Assembly (NCBI RefSeq): GCF_937910335.1
Contig: NZ_CALEMX010000224.1
Span: 1-33,968, forward strand
Source of the DNA: an uncultured Gimesia sp.
GTDB taxonomy: Bacteria > Planctomycetota > Planctomycetia > Planctomycetales > Planctomycetaceae
Reading direction: 5' to 3'
DNA: 33,968 bases
The translations under genes and the position numbers were made by a program. Positions 3,710-30,214 of this stretch are shown here, piece after piece (the first letter of the stretch is position 1; each line of letters starts with the position of its first letter). The notes beneath the pieces were generated by a model, which did no database searches, was not told where the DNA came from, and saw only the letters and a program-made list of their open reading frames with translations.

Positions 3710-4222
3710 TCAAGGCGCGGGCGGCGGAATGGGGGGGGCCAATGGTTGTGAAGAGACACCCGGTGTCGGCGGCGCGCCCGGCGGGGGAGGAATGAATTCC
3801 ACACCAGACGGGTTTCGTTTTCGATAAGGCTTTAGCTTCATTTGAGGACCGACTTGCATGCTTCCGTTGGGAATGACCGTCGGTTGGATGTTTCCCTCTA
3901 TCGCGCTGACATTCATCACGTTTTCATTGGGAACCTGATACGGCTGATCGCCGCCCCATAGATCAGGACGTTCATATCGGACATCTTTTCCGGGAGTCAC
4001 ACCGTATTGCCAGTGGAAAAACGCAACCTGACGTGCCCTATACGGGAAATGATCATGCTTTTCGAAGAAGAGGGCCGGCGCTCTGAGTGTGTTGTAATCA
4101 AACCACATGCTGCTCAGTGAGAAATGTTCTCGAAACACCATACAGCCCTGCTGACTGAGCGTTGCGGCGCAGAACAGTAACAGTAAAATTCGATGCTGAT
4201 TGAAAATCCGTTTTCGGTGCAT
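3710..4222 (-). CDS. small secreted/lipoprotein-like protein with Pro-rich tail, unknown
   Basis: 170 residues from the ATG at 4222, which has an AGG stretch 8 nt upstream; a TTG five codons earlier is open but less likely. The start MHRKRIF is followed by a hydrophobic stretch (ILLLLFCAATL) and QQGC, a non-canonical lipobox, so lipid attachment is possible but not secure. The middle is rich in aromatics (FYN-type segments around residues 40-75). The last 30 residues are dominated by proline (PPPPGAPPTPGV, PPIPPPAP), which is common in planctomycete envelope proteins. No domain recognised. Mature location is most likely periplasm or outer membrane. Confidence 0.6.
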   Translation of the reverse strand: MHRKRIFNQHRILLLLFCAATLSQQGCMVFREHFSLSSMWFDYNTLRAPALFFEKHDHFPYRARQVAFFHWQYGVTPGKDVRYERPDLWGGDQPYQVPNENVMNVSAIEGNIQPTVIPNGSMQVGPQMKLKPYRKRNPSGVEFIPPPPGAPPTPGVSSQPLAPPIPPPAP

Positions 4223-23645: not shown

Positions 23646-23861
23646 TTATTCTTCAACAGGGCCGATGAATTCGAATCGCGGCACTTCGCGTCCGTCGATG
23701 TTGACCGATTCCATAAACATCCCTTTCGGCCGCACCCACAGACCGCGCTCACCATAGTCCTGACGATAGACGACCATTTCTTCTTCTGTCTCACTGTGGC
23801 GCGCAATCTCGATCACAATATAATCATTGCCTTTATAATGGCGATAACGACCTGGTTTCAT
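23646..23861 (-). CDS. DUF1653 domain protein
   Basis: 71 residues that match the whole DUF1653 pattern: GRYRHYKGNDYIVIEIARHSET at the start, then MVVYRQDYGERGLWVRP, MFMESV and a final PRFEFIG. Uncharacterised small all-beta family, widespread in bacteria. Its ATG overlaps the TGA of the upstream DUF2293 gene by 4 bp, so translation is coupled. Confidence 0.92.
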   Translation of the reverse strand: MKPGRYRHYKGNDYIVIEIARHSETEEEMVVYRQDYGERGLWVRPKGMFMESVNIDGREVPRFEFIGPVEE

Positions 23862-24562
23862 GGGAGTTCTCTTTCTATCGCTGTTTTAGTAGCGGTTTCA
23901 GTCAATGCCCGCTGCAGTGGACAACCAGCGGCCGCGGTTACGCTGGTTCGATACTGATTTAATAGTTCTTTAGACCGCTGGGCGAGCATCCGCCGCACTT
24001 CCCGCCGTTTGCCTTTGACGCGAGGAATCGTCATTGAATCGTAGGCCGTTGTCTGATGTCGCATCCAGGCAATGACGGCGGCTTCCGCCCGTTGTTCTAC
24101 AGGAATCCGTTTGGTTCGCGCCACCGTACCACTGCCCACCGGCGTCGCATGTGTGGTAATCGCATGCGACATCTGCTCTGCCAGTGCTTGATGCGCGGGA
24201 TGAAAATCCAGAAAAGCGAGAACGGAACGATAGAAGTCATCCACGTACTCGGTTTGCGTTTTCTCACGCCGCCGTGCATCTGCTGCCTTGCGTTTGGCAT
24301 ACGCGTCCGTTGATCGCTCGGCTGTCAACTCTTCGCGAAGCCGTTCAATCGTATTCGTAGGCGCCCAGACCCCTTTGGAAAAGAGACGTCTTCCTTTTTT
24401 CTCCTGCACGATCCAGAATTCACCCACCGCCTTCACTCGCCGCGTCAAACCCGCATCGCCCGGAGGCAGTAACTCCCAGCCGGCAGGAACAGAATGCACG
24501 GATCCATCAGCAGCTTGTACCGTGTCTGGTGTAGGCCCCGGTGAGAAAGTTGAAGCGTTCAT
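23858..24562 (-). CDS. DUF2293 domain protein
   Basis: 234 residues from the ATG at 24562 (a GTG one codon upstream is also open). The C-terminal 90 residues carry the DUF2293 pattern: QRAEAAVIAWMRHQTTAYD, MTIPRVKGKRREVRRMLAQRS and LLNQYR. The N-terminal ~70 residues resemble a small beta domain (GWELLPPGDAGLTRRV, EFWIVQEKKGRRLFSKGVWAP). A basic helix in the middle (KRKAADARRREK) may bind nucleic acid; this is inference only. Translationally coupled to the DUF1653 gene. The pair converges on the CPXCG gene with 25 bp between stops. Confidence 0.88.
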   Translation of the reverse strand: MNASTFSPGPTPDTVQAADGSVHSVPAGWELLPPGDAGLTRRVKAVGEFWIVQEKKGRRLFSKGVWAPTNTIERLREELTAERSTDAYAKRKAADARRREKTQTEYVDDFYRSVLAFLDFHPAHQALAEQMSHAITTHATPVGSGTVARTKRIPVEQRAEAAVIAWMRHQTTAYDSMTIPRVKGKRREVRRMLAQRSKELLNQYRTSVTAAAGCPLQRALTETATKTAIERELP

Positions 24563-24839
24563 CACGTGTTAAATTTCTTTCAAAAATATCAGTAGTACGG
24601 GAGCGTTGTTATTTGAGGAATCATGAGACGACAATCATATGGGTAAACTGCTGATTGTTATTAACAAGAATGTGGATGTCTGACAACCCTCCTAATTGAT
24701 CTACCATTGGTTCGTGATCATCTATGGTTTAGCCTTGATTAGTCCAGAATATATTTGACCCGTAGAGGGGTAATGGGTTACCGTTAACTTTTCAACGATC
24801 TTGCATCGAACTTACTTCTGTTACATTGGGAATAGACTT

Positions 24840-25046
24840 ATGCTGCGTTACTTTCTGGCATCCAACTTTTGGCTCCTCTTCATTCTGATTATGTTATTGG
24901 CGCAAGGTAATAACAATTCCTACACGGCGCGGTATACGATCTTTGGGTATGGTATGATTCCCGCGACTTTGTTTTGGTTCGTGATTTGTGTCGCATTAGT
25001 TGCTTTGCTTGTCTGCTTGAGTAACTGGAAAAAGGGAGAAAGATGA
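24840..25046 (+). CDS. small two-helix membrane protein
   Basis: 68 residues from the ATG at 24840 with GGGA about 8 nt upstream; the frame extends 13 codons further but without a ribosome site. Two hydrophobic segments are visible: FWLLFILIMLLAQG (about residues 8-21) and MIPATLFWFVICVALVALLVCL (about 38-59), ending in a basic WKKGER. Family unknown. It ends 4 nt before the AAA ATPase ATG and was probably made to work with it. Confidence 0.65.
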   Translation: MLRYFLASNFWLLFILIMLLAQGNNNSYTARYTIFGYGMIPATLFWFVICVALVALLVCLSNWKKGER

Positions 25047-25050
25047 AGTA

Positions 25051-26490
25051 ATGACATTACTGGAATTCTTGTTAATAGAATTGATCATTGGTACTGGGAT
25101 CGCTGCGTTTGTGATCTGGACGTTGAGGAAAAAATCGGCCAGACAGAAAGCAGAAGCTCAACAGGTTGCACCCTTACTCAAGGCACACTTTGATCCCGTT
25201 CTCACCAGTGATATTACCATTTCGGAGCGGAAGTTTCCTTTTCGTGTTCGGGCCGATTTGCAACGGGCCATTGACCGGCTGTTTGATGAAGATACGAACG
25301 TGCTCCACTTTTGCGGTGTAAGCGCTGTGTACTCCCAAAAAGGTTTGTCCTTAACCAGTTGTTTCGTGCCAGACATTCATTCTCCTGCGGTTGCGATTCC
25401 TCCCGAATACGAAGAAGTGAACGTGGGTGGTGATGATTCAGTCCGTGTTTTAAAAATTGGACTCTGGCTGCTTGAAAAAAATGGAGTTCGATTTGCCGTT
25501 TTGCTCTCACCCATCGGAAATTTTGGGAGAATCACGGGCTTGCGGTTTCAGGTAGGTACGCCGAATTCTCCCGAAGGCACAGAGATTACTCAGCAGTTCT
25601 TCAGACATTTAGAAGCGGCAATCATCGAGGCAAAAACCTATCGCGGGAAAGTCCTGTCCTTAGAAAAGTTGGAACACTCCTATTCTGGAGAATCAAAGGG
25701 CATTAACGTTCATCAACTCAGAACGGTGACAAGAGACCAGGTTATCTTACCAGAACCGACAATAGAACTATTAGAACGAAATGTGATTCAGTTCGTTGCA
25801 CAACGCGCACAACTTGCGAAGTACAAGCAAGCCACAAAAAAAGGAATCCTGTTCTACGGCCCGCCGGGGACTGGTAAAACACATACGATTCATTACCTTG
25901 CAAACGAATTGGAAGCACACACGACTTTACTGATTTCCGCAGAACAGGTAGGCATGTTAGATGAATACATGAGTCTGGCACGCTTGCTGCAACCCAGCAT
26001 CGTGGTGCTGGAAGATGTCGATCTGATTGCCCGAGACCGCAGGGATATGAACAGTGCCTGTGAGGAAGTACTGTTGAATAAATTGCTCAATGAGATGGAT
26101 GGATTGAAGCAGGATTGCGAAGTTCTATTTATTCTTACAACGAATCGTCCTGAAACATTGGAAGCGGCTTTGGCCTCTCGTCCCGGTCGTGTTGATCAGG
26201 CCATCGAATTTCCCTTACCCGATGAAGCGGGAAGAAAGAAGCTGATTCAACTCTATGCAACAGGTGTCTCTGTGAGTGATGAAGTTGTGGAAGAGGTAAT
26301 TCGAAGAACAGAAAAAGTCTCTGCATCATTTATTAAAGAGCTGGTGCGACGCTCAGTTCAATTCCATCTAGAACGAAAGGGGACAGGCGATCTATCCAGC
26401 GAAGATGTAATCAATGCACTTGACGAAATGTTGGTCAGAGGTGGTTCACTCAACTTAAAACTCTTAGGTGCCGAAAAAATAGCAAAATGA
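25051..26490 (+). CDS. membrane-anchored AAA ATPase
   Basis: 479 residues. One N-terminal transmembrane segment (residues ~7-24) is followed by a ~200-residue alpha/beta N-domain and then an AAA module: Walker A GPPGTGKT (~270-277), Walker B IVVLEDVDL (~316-324), sensor-1 LTTNRPE (~361), and the arginine-finger/box VII SRPGRVDQAIEF (~376-387). The C-terminal lid follows (EVIRRTEKVSASFIKELVRR). It resembles FtsH/Bcs1-type AAA proteins but has no HExxH metalloprotease domain, so it is likely a membrane unfoldase or remodeller. It may assemble with the 68-residue membrane protein 4 bp upstream. A decayed copy of its 3' end lies at 28022-28144. Confidence 0.9.
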   Translation: MTLLEFLLIELIIGTGIAAFVIWTLRKKSARQKAEAQQVAPLLKAHFDPVLTSDITISERKFPFRVRADLQRAIDRLFDEDTNVLHFCGVSAVYSQKGLSLTSCFVPDIHSPAVAIPPEYEEVNVGGDDSVRVLKIGLWLLEKNGVRFAVLLSPIGNFGRITGLRFQVGTPNSPEGTEITQQFFRHLEAAIIEAKTYRGKVLSLEKLEHSYSGESKGINVHQLRTVTRDQVILPEPTIELLERNVIQFVAQRAQLAKYKQATKKGILFYGPPGTGKTHTIHYLANELEAHTTLLISAEQVGMLDEYMSLARLLQPSIVVLEDVDLIARDRRDMNSACEEVLLNKLLNEMDGLKQDCEVLFILTTNRPETLEAALASRPGRVDQAIEFPLPDEAGRKKLIQLYATGVSVSDEVVEEVIRRTEKVSASFIKELVRRSVQFHLERKGTGDLSSEDVINALDEMLVRGGSLNLKLLGAEKIAK

Positions 26491-26530
26491 GCATGGCTAA
26501 AATATTATTAAACTCAATGGTGAGAAATTG

Positions 26531-26578
26531 ATGACACGAATCTTTCTAGCGAGCTGTGTGAGCGACTTCATTTCCTAA
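26531..26578 (+). pseudogene. remnant start of the four-helix membrane gene
   Basis: ATGACACGAATCTTTCTAGC matches ATGACGCGAATCTTTCTGGC at 28149 except at two third-codon positions. Translation MTRIFLAS then diverges and stops after 15 codons. It lies 40 nt after the AAA stop codon, the same relative order as at 28144/28149. Confidence 0.7.
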
Positions 26579-26680
26579 GTCTTTAAAACATTAACCGGGT
26601 AATAACATGTCTGTCGGCTTTTCGCAACCAGATGAAGACGGCGGGGGAGAAGAAAAACGTTCTGTATTTGAAAAGTCAGT

Positions 26681-27937
26681 TTATGATTCTGTACCATGAT
26701 CAGTATAAGGTTTTTGTTTCTCAAAACATTTTAATTGTGCTTCGCATCTGTGTAATTCAAGTTCAGGTGCTTTTGTACTTGACTCATTGATCCAGCGAAT
26801 CGCTTCGTCGAATTGTCCTACTTCAGCATATGCGGCTGCCAATGTGCCCAGGTCATTCCATTCAGTCGTATCTGCTAACTCACAGTTACGTAGCGCCAAT
26901 TGAAGGGCTTTGTTGCCATCGCGGTATTCGGGTACAGGACAGGTCGCCAGCAGCCAGGCCAGACAATTAATGGCATTTCTTGCTTCTGCATCGGATTGTA
27001 TGGCATGTTCAAAATCTGCTTGCGCTTTTTCAAATGCTTCCATCTTCAGATAAGTGTAACCGCGAGTAGTGAGAAGCTCCGCAGACTGATCCCCCAGTTC
27101 AAAAGCACGTGTATAATCATCAATGGCCTTGGGATAGAGTCCAGCTCCTGTATAAAGAAATCCACGATCAAAATAATGAGATGCTTCATTCTGATTTTGC
27201 TGGATTAAATCATCATAAGGTTTTTGTAGAACCGCGTTTAGATAATCACACTTGGATTGTCGGGTATTGCCAATTCTTTCTAAAGCAAATCCTCGGGAAA
27301 CAAAAATATCCGCAGACTGATATCCGAGTTCCATTGCACGACTATAGTCATCAATGGCGTTTGTAAACTGTTTTATTTCGATATAGAGATTTCCCCGCTC
27401 AATGTAATTATAAATATCGGTAGGCGAGAGCTGGATTGCTTTAGCAAAGTCTGCGAGGGCTTCTTCGGTCTTACCTAATTTTGAATAAGAACAAGCGCGA
27501 TTAAAGAGACCATCAAGGAAAGTAGGCTGCAGTTCCAGGCCGTGTGTTGTTTCGACTACAGACTGCTGGTGATTTTCGTTTAACGCATAGATGGCACCCC
27601 GATTTAAGAATGCAAAGTGATTGTCAGGCTGTAAGAGGATGATGGTGTTACAGTCAGAGAGTGCTTTATCGAGTTCATTAACACGAATATAAGCGTGCGA
27701 ACGGCCGAGGTAGGCATCAACTTGTTTCGGATGTCTCGCAATCACTTGTGAATACTTGGCAATTGCAGAATCGTAATCACCACGATGTAATAACCGGTCT
27801 CCCTGTTTTACAATACGATTTGAGAAAAGGCGTGGTATTGAGAAGGAGCGTGGTAAGCGATAGATCCACCTCAATACCAGGAACAGATATCCTACTAGAA
27901 ATACTACACCGAAGATAATAAAGATCGAATCAACCAT
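26681..27937 (-). CDS. membrane-anchored TPR protein
   Basis: 418 residues from the ATG at 27937 (MVDSIFIIFGVVF); the frame opens 10 codons earlier. One transmembrane segment at ~4-23 (SIFIIFGVVFLVGYLFLVL). From ~55 to ~345 there are about nine tetratricopeptide repeats, recognisable as GDYDSAIAKYSQVIARHP, ELDKALSDCNTIILLQPDN, KTEEALADFAKAIQLSP, QFTNAIDDYSRAMELG, LYPKAIDDYTRAFELG, AFEKAQADFEHAI. A final Cys/His-containing segment (LAWLLATCPVPEYRDG) resembles the tail seen in planctomycete TPR proteins. Likely a protein-interaction scaffold facing cytoplasm or periplasm. It is inserted between the duplicated AAA/membrane-protein segments, on the opposite strand. Confidence 0.88.
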   Translation of the reverse strand: MVDSIFIIFGVVFLVGYLFLVLRWIYRLPRSFSIPRLFSNRIVKQGDRLLHRGDYDSAIAKYSQVIARHPKQVDAYLGRSHAYIRVNELDKALSDCNTIILLQPDNHFAFLNRGAIYALNENHQQSVVETTHGLELQPTFLDGLFNRACSYSKLGKTEEALADFAKAIQLSPTDIYNYIERGNLYIEIKQFTNAIDDYSRAMELGYQSADIFVSRGFALERIGNTRQSKCDYLNAVLQKPYDDLIQQNQNEASHYFDRGFLYTGAGLYPKAIDDYTRAFELGDQSAELLTTRGYTYLKMEAFEKAQADFEHAIQSDAEARNAINCLAWLLATCPVPEYRDGNKALQLALRNCELADTTEWNDLGTLAAAYAEVGQFDEAIRWINESSTKAPELELHRCEAQLKCFEKQKPYTDHGTES

Positions 27938-28021
27938 GAACAGTGTCCTCTTAACTTGGCATGCCATTTTCTGATTATACCTGTTCTCAAGTTGAACGCT
28001 ACCGTTTTGATATCTATGATC

Positions 28022-28144
28022 CAGGAGGCAGAAGCAGGTGAAATCTTCGATAGGGCTATCAGGAACGTTCTCGATGAAATTTTAAACAGTGACTGTTCGC
28101 TCAACTGAAAACTCTTCGGTGCAGAGAAAATGGGGAACGGATAA
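28022..28144 (+). pseudogene. decayed 3' end of a second AAA ATPase gene
   Basis: One frame reads AIRNVLDEILNSDCSLN*KL followed by FGAEKMGNG*. It aligns with the C-terminus of the intact AAA protein, VINALDEMLVRGGSLNLKL followed by LGAEKIAK*. A TGA stop replaces the Leu codon after SLN. No Walker motifs precede it; the rest of the gene is lost and replaced by the TPR gene's upstream region. The stop lies 4 nt before the four-helix gene's ATG. Confidence 0.75.
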
Positions 28145-28148
28145 TCAA

Positions 28149-28553
28149 ATGACGCGAATCTTTCTGGCGCTTATGGGAATCCTTTATGTTTTGCTGGCAC
28201 TCTGGTGTGCAATCGCACCTGAGTCCACTTCACAGTCTGTCGGATTCACACTGCAACCCGGCTCAGGTCAGTCTGAATTTCTGACAGTCTATGGAGGCCT
28301 GGAACTGGGGTTGGCATTGGTTTTCCTTTGGCCTCTATTACAAAGAGCAGTCACGCAGTTTTCGCTGGGAGTTTGTCTGATGGTTCATGGTTCACTGGTA
28401 TTATTTAGAACCGTCGGCTTCTTCTTGTTTACCGGTTTTGAATCAACAACCTTCTATCTGGCTGGCGGCGAATGGCTCATTTTTCTGATCAGCTTGACGC
28501 TCCTATATCGCCAGAGAGACTCAACGGCGCGAGATGTGGAATTTAAAAATTAG
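28149..28553 (+). CDS. four-helix membrane protein, DUF4345-like
   Basis: 134 residues from the ATG at 28149; the open frame 20 codons upstream only reflects the decayed AAA sequence read in another frame. Four hydrophobic segments: IFLALMGILYVLLALWCA, YGGLELGLALVFLWPLL, FSLGVCLMVHGSLVLFR and LAGGEWLIFLISLTLLY. The YGGLE.G motif and length fit the DUF4345/DoxX-like four-helix membrane proteins, but this is a weak assignment. Position directly after a decayed AAA 3' end suggests it was once the downstream partner of an AAA ATPase. Confidence 0.75.
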   Translation: MTRIFLALMGILYVLLALWCAIAPESTSQSVGFTLQPGSGQSEFLTVYGGLELGLALVFLWPLLQRAVTQFSLGVCLMVHGSLVLFRTVGFFLFTGFESTTFYLAGGEWLIFLISLTLLYRQRDSTARDVEFKN

Positions 28554-28635: not shown

Positions 28636-29151
28636 TTAGAGAATCGGTAAAACGTCAAACGCTAATGGCCGCTTCCCTTCTTCAACAAAAAATGCATATT
28701 GCCGCAGGTATTCAATAGCCGGTCCGAGTAGATATTGTTTCCACTCTTTCACATTCTCATTATGCTGACGCAACGACTCTACTTCGTCCAATAAATCATC
28801 ACAGGACTCCCACCATTCACGAATTAATCTTAATGTCCAATGCACGTCTCCATCCGCACCGTAGCCTTCGAATGGATCAAAGTTGGCCGCTTGCAGAATA
28901 CAATCCAATTCAAAGAGATCCGTTGGTTGACGAAAAATGAATTCTTGACCAACATCATCCACCATCACGTTGAATGGTGCTTCCTGTGGGCCTGTCAAGC
29001 AGGTGTCAGTCATCGCACCATAAAAAAGGCCCGGGATATTAAAGCGGTTGCATTCCGAAAAGTTGCCGTTGAAATAATTCGTTTCCTTGATCATTCGTTT
29101 CGGAACGAGATCGGCAATGTCTGAAAGGTCATACCAGGTCTTTTCGCTCAT
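28636..29151 (-). CDS. hypothetical protein
   Basis: 171 residues from the ATG at 29151 (MSEKTWYDLSDIADLVPKR); the frame extends 25 codons upstream without a better start. Soluble, acidic, rich in Trp/Tyr/Phe, with WTLRLIREWWESCDDLLDEVESL and WKQYLLGPAIEYLRQYAFFVEEG suggesting two long helices at the C-terminus. No family recognised. A terminator for the upstream minus-strand gene separates the two, so this gene has its own promoter. Confidence 0.65.
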   Translation of the reverse strand: MSEKTWYDLSDIADLVPKRMIKETNYFNGNFSECNRFNIPGLFYGAMTDTCLTGPQEAPFNVMVDDVGQEFIFRQPTDLFELDCILQAANFDPFEGYGADGDVHWTLRLIREWWESCDDLLDEVESLRQHNENVKEWKQYLLGPAIEYLRQYAFFVEEGKRPLAFDVLPIL

Positions 29152-29232
29152 TGTTGAATAATCCTCAATCGCAAGAGAGACCGTAGATCTTACATAAAAC
29201 TTTTCATGCTGGTAGAAAATATACAACGATGA

Positions 29233-29270
29233 TAAAAAATTGCCCCTTCCTTATTAGAATGAAAGGGGCA
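29233..29270 (-). terminator. intrinsic terminator of the 29297-30100 gene
   Basis: On the minus strand TGCCCCTT pairs with AAGGGGCA around a 14-nt loop and is followed by ATTTTTT. It begins 27 nt after the stop codon of the upstream gene. Confidence 0.85.
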
Positions 29271-29296
29271 GTGAAATAGTTTTCTGAATAGATAAT

Positions 29297-30100
29297 TCAA
29301 TCCAGAAATGCCACGTTTCGCATGGCCCGTGATTGATTTTCAGTATTCATCACAACCTGATGCCAATCATGCAGCTTGATGGTTTTATGATCGGGATGGC
29401 GAATACGTCCTCGTACATAAACAGCCGGATTACGCCGCATCGTTCTCCAGTTCCAATTCTTAGCGTTTCCGTTACGAGATATAATGCGATGATAATTTTC
29501 TGCGGTTACTCCATTCCGGTGATGAGAACAAACATAAACCGTTTCGCCGCCGATTCGATAACAATCGTCGGCCCAGTGTGGTTTGCCTCCGTTTCCGCGA
29601 ACTAAAGGCTCGTTCTGTAAAGTCAAGGCATCATCAATTTTAAAATCTCGAACAGGTAGAAAGAACCATTCCCCCTGTCGAACATAAGCGGCATTCTTTC
29701 GACGGTTTCGGGATCTTCCTGCAACGCGTTTTTGCGCCTGTGCAATCTGAACCTCGCGCGGCTTTAACGCTTCCTTTGCTTGACCGACTGTGCCAACCGA
29801 TGCGGATTCAGGAATTGCCGCCACAAACCAATGTCGCTCATCATGACCGCAAAGATACTTGTTTTTTTCATCGTTTTCACGAATCATTAACAGCAGATGA
29901 CGATCGCGTGGTTGAAGATTAAGGACTTGCAGCTCTGCGTTGTCTTGATGTTCAATTTCGAAGAACTCTCCTCGACGGTCGACACCAATATCAAGAGACA
30001 CTAGACGTTTTGAAGAGCGAGTACGGATATTCGATTCGTCTTTCGTTTTCAATCGTGCGCCGATTCGGTCAAACTGATTGTTTAATAATGTAGTATTCAT
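29297..30100 (-). CDS. conserved-looking hypothetical protein
   Basis: 267 residues from the ATG at 30100 (MNTTLLNNQFDRIGARLK); 29 more codons are open upstream but look like antisense noise. Visible parts: a beta-rich N-domain (SLDIGVDRRGEFFEI, LQVLNLQPRDRHLLLMIREN), CGHDERHWFVAAIP with Cys/His residues, a basic helix (REVQIAQAQKRVAGRSRNRR), and a C-domain with FFLPVRDF, CYRIGGETVYVCSHHRNGV and YVRGRIRHPDHKTIKLHDWH. It gives the impression of a stand-alone soluble domain protein carried by many bacteria, but I do not recognise a named family. It has its own terminator. Confidence 0.7.
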   Translation of the reverse strand: MNTTLLNNQFDRIGARLKTKDESNIRTRSSKRLVSLDIGVDRRGEFFEIEHQDNAELQVLNLQPRDRHLLLMIRENDEKNKYLCGHDERHWFVAAIPESASVGTVGQAKEALKPREVQIAQAQKRVAGRSRNRRKNAAYVRQGEWFFLPVRDFKIDDALTLQNEPLVRGNGGKPHWADDCYRIGGETVYVCSHHRNGVTAENYHRIISRNGNAKNWNWRTMRRNPAVYVRGRIRHPDHKTIKLHDWHQVVMNTENQSRAMRNVAFLD

Positions 30101-30214
30101 GACTCTAGGACATAACAATGTGCGAAAGGTTCGCATGGATATCATGGAATCTCTTACAGGAACTGCTGATTTCGACAGGCGCTGCAAAGATTATCGAAAT
30201 CACAATGAACGAAG

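Follow-up and report, generated by a model that had tools for sequence, protein, structure and literature searches.

A doubled AAA-DUF4345 gene junction around an older TPR gene in a Gimesia genome

Insertion-duplication, in which integration by a single crossover leaves direct repeats, and duplication-random loss are the described processes that most resemble the locus studied here. The papers found on duplication-random loss are mostly mitochondrial (for example PMC5745709); that process resembles our locus in that a gene junction is directly repeated, genes survive in complementary fashion and short non-coding remnants stay behind. The locus lies in a 33,968-nucleotide contig of an uncultured Gimesia species (NZ_CALEMX010000224.1, here C224), which in its whole length is the window of our analysis and which belongs to a 6.5-Mb genome, G000, assembled as 635 contigs. 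In this window the end of a gene for an AAA+ ATPase and the start of a gene for a four-helix, DUF4345-like protein occur twice, in direct orientation, around a gene for a TPR-repeat protein. Unlike the cases of duplication-random loss, the locus is on a bacterial chromosome, its second AAA copy may have been incomplete from the start and no full tandem intermediate has been observed; remnants extending across the bodies of both lost genes were not found either (26552-26589 and 27943-28018). As in insertion-duplication, direct repeats of the target junction stand on either side of a block, but here this block was at the locus earlier and no vehicle can be seen.

The doubled junction is made of two blocks. 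The first is the 3' end of the intact AAA gene (25051-26490, plus strand, 479 aa): its left copy at 26419-26480 and its right copy at 28070-28131, both on the plus strand, are identical at 47 of 62 positions without gaps (76%), and the runner-up 62-mer match to the AAA tail on both strands of the window reaches 32/62. The second is the start of the intact DUF4345-like gene (28149-28553, plus strand, 134 aa), whose positions 28149-28169 are matched at 19 of 21 nucleotides by a plus-strand stub at 26531-26551; the runner-up 21-mer match within the window is 15/21. Local alignment of both regions gives a score of 49, compared with 31 for the best of 2000 dinucleotide shuffles. The junction repeat is therefore genuine and above chance, as an initial annotation of the window, made from the sequence alone, had proposed for the AAA 3' end and the four-helix start. 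The right copy is a broken tail with an in-frame TGA, translating as LDEILNSDCSLN*KLFGAEK, and the end of the intact AAA gene translates as LDEMLVRGGSLNLKLLGAEK.

Homology at the DNA level is secure over only about 62 + 21 nt. Directly 5' of the 62-nt block (26368-26418 compared with 28019-28069) ungapped identity falls to 19/51, and tblastn still ties 28019-28132 to AAA residues 440-477 (E 0.006). The two blocks are separated by 50 nt in the left copy (26481-26530) and by 17 nt in the right copy (28132-28148); the 40-nt plus-strand spacer from the AAA stop to the stub (26491-26530) and 28132-28148 show no alignment beyond chance (840/1000 shuffles as good). AAA-like DNA ahead of the tail fragment was not found (182/500 and 215/500 shuffles as good in one test; 934/1000 for the near part and 304/1000 for the whole unit in another), and neither was an AAA signal in 27943-28018 or a DUF4345-like signal in the 38 nt past the stub (26552-26589). 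A second DUF4345 piece at 26605-26629, which looked colinear with the gene (4 to 14 of 500 shuffles as good), was dropped because the TPR-side spacer of a related genome, G007, matches this stretch better (score 44, 0/500 shuffles as good).

The comparison set comprised 17 genomes of the genus, with G000 counted in; two of them, G006 and G015, are less than 80% complete. The closest relative, G004 (flanks 89-90% identical), has the junction once. From left to right, it carries the conserved flank gene that served for tblastn synteny and marker trees (in the window a 235-aa open reading frame (ORF) at 23858-24565, minus strand, hereafter the 23858 gene), a small ORF, an AAA remnant, 39 nt and an intact DUF4345 gene whose product is 87% identical to that of the window. 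The small ORF, which in the window encodes a hydrophobic protein of 68 aa 5' of AAA (24840-25046, plus strand; 81 aa from an upstream TTG at 24801), is in the same place in G004 and 90% identical. The decayed AAA of G004 is recognisable at the DNA level as two blocks, homologous to 26230-26272 and 26410-26482. No TPR gene was found at the G004 locus, and the whole G004 genome is without a TPR homologue at E<=1e-40. In the window, the left copy has a G004-like layout, with a spacer of 40 nt compared to 39 nt. The short AAA blocks of G004 (L041 9513-9641, minus strand) still form one open frame to the stop, i.e. they decayed by internal deletions.

The initial annotation had the TPR gene filling the middle of the locus after the duplication, and this order of events is not supported by the relatives. 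The gene (26681-27937, minus strand, 418 aa, Pfam TPR) shares two blocks of 70% nucleotide identity with G007, the sister of G000 plus G004 (support 95/89 in the protein tree and 88/76 in the DNA tree); the G007 contig ends to the right of a 592-aa transporter-like ORF. Synteny was followed by tblastn in the 14 genomes of the genus whose retrieved stretch includes the 23858 gene; this gene was not found at the locus in G002 and G003, and G015 was not retrieved. TPR lies directly beside the 23858 gene, on the same strand, in 8 of the 14 (G001, G005, G006, G007, G008, G009, G012 and G014), AAA lies between the two in the window and G013 (2/14), and a TPR match at the locus is absent by tblastn from the remaining four (G004, G010, G011 and G016). 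Moreover, the spacer on the 3' side of TPR (26590-26631, unstranded), which starts 38 nt beyond the end of the DUF4345 stub, is 81% identical over 43 columns to G007 3881-3923 (0/500 shuffles as good), and in G007 this same spacer parts the 23858 gene from TPR. Because this spacer is shared and TPR is the usual neighbour of the 23858 gene, TPR is no late gap-filler. None of the other loci scanned showed the whole spacer block; partial 15-nt matches in G001 and G010 barely beat 30 shuffles (25 compared with 24). Nor was a relic of a TPR spacer, since lost, found in the interval that separates the 23858 gene from the small ORF (348/500 shuffles as good). The TPR match of G005 (G005:C6:102139-102888) has one internal TAA, and this gene may be decaying.

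The doubling itself is seen only in the window and is a lineage-specific scar. The polarity of changes in the tail was read with eight outgroup AAA genes. At four tail sites (offsets 12, 44, 45 and 55) the two window copies agree in a state that is missing from G004 and from at least six of the eight outgroups, and we saw no comparably clear site uniting G004 with one window copy by a shared new state. These four sites, thin as they are, suggest that the doubling would be younger than the split from G004. By tblastn, an AAA tail ahead of DUF4345 was not found at 12 further genus loci; a second stub, too short for tblastn, was looked for by eye in G005, G008, G012 and G013, and none was seen. 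A DNA search of the 17 genus genomes, including the two incomplete ones, returned no genome keeping a complete tandem. The duplication had initially been called ancient, which agrees neither with the missing second copy in these four genomes nor with the four sites.

We tentatively interpret the pieces as the scar that a tandem duplication, local and partial, has left behind. In an ancestor, an AAA-DUF4345 pair would have been flanked by the 23858 gene on one side and by the older spacer-TPR block on the other. A tandem duplication of the stretch from inside the AAA 3' end through DUF4345 and TPR would then have been followed by deletions of the first DUF4345, of which about seven codons would be left, and of the second spacer-TPR block, giving the order AAA, DUF stub, TPR, AAA tail, DUF4345. 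The tail at 28070 would in this case have been truncated from birth and never have been part of a complete second gene; since no AAA-like DNA lies ahead of it, the account can do without a complete second AAA gene. Most likely, the two fragments have no function of their own and the intact genes are AAA, TPR and DUF4345. Of the initially proposed tandem duplication with complementary decay, the local doubling of the junction, the survival of one gene on each side and the single junction of G004 are retained, whereas a complete second AAA gene has left no trace.

Several observations weigh against this interpretation. The seam and the deletion points were not located, 26552-26589 matches nothing tested, and 27943-28018 is only weakly colinear with the region upstream of TPR in G007 (23/1000 shuffles as good). 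A second TPR match in the window was not found (tblastn, E<1e-3), and each deletion step is assumed, not seen. The agreement between the 39-nt and 40-nt spacers is one of length and order only, as the sequences align no better than chance (947/1000 shuffles as good); because they are unalignable, the common origin of the two layouts rests on the flanking homologies. Of the four sites that carry the shared-state signal, three fall on codon positions 1 or 3. Finally, the contig comes from a 635-contig genome, without read coverage to exclude misassembly.

The main rival, which we consider possible but rather unlikely, is insertion-duplication: the spacer-TPR block would have been lost and would then have re-entered a single AAA-DUF4345 junction, by a single crossover of a piece with about 130 bp of junction or by template switching, leaving direct flanking repeats neither of which was ever in a full second gene. 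G004 does resemble the empty site, with the junction present and TPR absent both from the locus and, at the threshold given above, from the genome, and the lengths of the repeats (133 nt left, 100 nt right) and their positions are as expected from one event. The cost is that TPR has to be lost and to return, while its position as the usual neighbour of the 23858 gene and the 3' spacer shared with G007 fit vertical descent. Partial tandem duplication is preferred to this route, although the data are not decisive between both.

The model as first annotated, a complete tandem of AAA and DUF4345 that lost the opposite gene from each copy and received TPR later, appears improbable. It accounts for the order and orientation of the remnants and for the single unit of G004, but AAA-like DNA is missing 5' of the tail, as is DUF4345-like DNA from the 38 nt that follow the stub, and the TPR 3' spacer common to the outgroup G007 makes TPR appear older than the doubling. 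Slightly more doubtful still is a doubling that predates the split of G000 and G004, with G004 arising as a pop-out by recombination between the direct repeats and its AAA decaying afterwards. Such recombination would yield AAA, spacer and DUF4345 without TPR, as in G004, and in a three-way alignment G004 is left-like in the tail (10 compared with 3 sites) and right-like towards the DUF4345 start (7 compared with 3, then 3 compared with 0). This mosaic, however, is also expected if G004 retains the ancestral junction, and the four tail sites suggest that the window copies share changes missing from G004. Misassembly or chance similarity is highly improbable: the genome is indeed split over its 635 contigs, but nothing else in the window scores nearly as high as these matches, the 15 differences between the copies over 62 tail sites mean that they are not assembly duplicates, and the order AAA-TPR-DUF4345 is also found in G013.

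The initial annotation further took the doubled junction to imply that the AAA ATPase and the four-helix protein were functional neighbours, and such a partnership is poorly supported. With cut-offs of E<=1e-60 for AAA and E<=1e-5 for DUF4345, AAA is present in 6 of the 17 genus genomes (G000, G005, G008, G011, G012 and G013) and DUF4345 in 14, eight of which are without an intact AAA, including G004 with its remnant. The two share one locus in five of the six AAA genomes, in varying order: in G005, G008 and G012 AAA lies downstream of DUF4345, and in the window and G013 it lies upstream. In the tree the five AAAs fall into a single clade (support 100/98) in which that of the window is outermost, and the co-location is therefore most simply one inherited event. 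Outside the genus, 16 AAA loci were covered, several on short contigs (G017, G023, G038, G047, G056 and the second G141 match were left out), and DUF4345 (E<=1e-3) was near none of them; AAA was near none of the three DUF4345 loci covered (G034, G040 and G057, with G049 left out). Conserved adjacency of AAA and DUF4345 across independent lineages was thus not found. A stable operon of the 68-aa protein, AAA and the four-helix protein, as initially suggested, is at odds with the distribution of the small ORF, which occurs in 5 of 59 genomes and in three of these (G008, G011 and G014) as distant copies away from AAA and DUF4345. It is very doubtful that the four-helix protein and the membrane-anchored AAA make up a real membrane module of loose organisation in the genus, in which selection would keep the pair together (one locus in 5/6 AAA-bearing genus genomes) while local duplications reshuffle their order relative to TPR.

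We also tested on trees whether AAA had split long ago into 'upstream' paralogues (window, G013) and 'downstream' ones (G005, G008, G012), groups named only after tree inspection; the grouping of window and G013 was rejected (p-AU 0.0155, 0.0109), and the downstream group is borderline (p-AU 0.0484, 0.0718). The DUF4345 match of G040 (L029) has one internal TAG.

In four cases (G011, G029, G050 and G129; 716-784 aa) a relative of AAA stands in a single open frame with TPR-like repeats at its N-terminus. A link of TPR to AAA would thus be at least as plausible as one of DUF4345 to AAA, though TPR repeats occur widely and, at 22-30%, the similarity is low. These frames are at L048 7220-9427, L052 5907-8072, and in L120 and L054 (G129, G029), and the AAA of G011 that is among them lies on a different contig from its DUF4345.

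The window AAA was assigned by PF00004 (E 4.2e-24) and by its position in the tree. It has the classical AAA core (residues 266-389) in common with Cdc48/PAN-type AAA+ ATPases and IetA, and differs from them in its hydrophobic N-terminus and separate middle region. Among proteins of solved structure, its best sequence matches (the best 60 of 282) are mostly ATPases of the Cdc48/p97 type, aligned over the core (best stretches between approximately residues 239 and 450). The PADLOC IetA profile matches residues 225-441 (E 1.8e-23), but the protein is not filed as IetA because it scores 67 bits on NF042959 against a cutoff of 510; its PAN family score is 108 bits against a cutoff of 500. In the IetAS anti-phage system the ATPase has a neighbouring protease partner. 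None of the six window proteins run against Pfam, a scan that did not include the other ORFs such as the 23858 gene, matched a protease. A structure model of AAA from a two-sequence alignment was poor (mean pLDDT 57.2) and was not used. Past the core, the AAA family ends in a tail motif, LDEML..GGSLNLKLLG (window 26419-26478), which is conserved with small changes in most of 22 sequences compared and is clearly diverged in G029. The four-helix protein matches PF14248 over residues 2-111 (profile of 119 positions; E 8e-6) with 26.3 bits, just under the Pfam gathering cutoff of 26.5, and is therefore named DUF4345-like; a literature search brought up one paper with a mention of DUF4345. On its 3' side, window 28636-30187 holds two minus-strand ORFs (196 and 296 aa) in a stretch missing from G004; the 296-aa ORF adjoins AAA in G005 and G012.

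Taken together, the doubled junction around an older third gene is a real but ordinary event of genome evolution and no proof of joint function. It cautions that one pair of gene fragments is insufficient to establish a partnership, the adjacency here being inherited in one clade and not found in the other genera examined. Through a sister species and an outgroup, the locus shows the rearrangement and loss of a patchily distributed gene within one bacterial genus.

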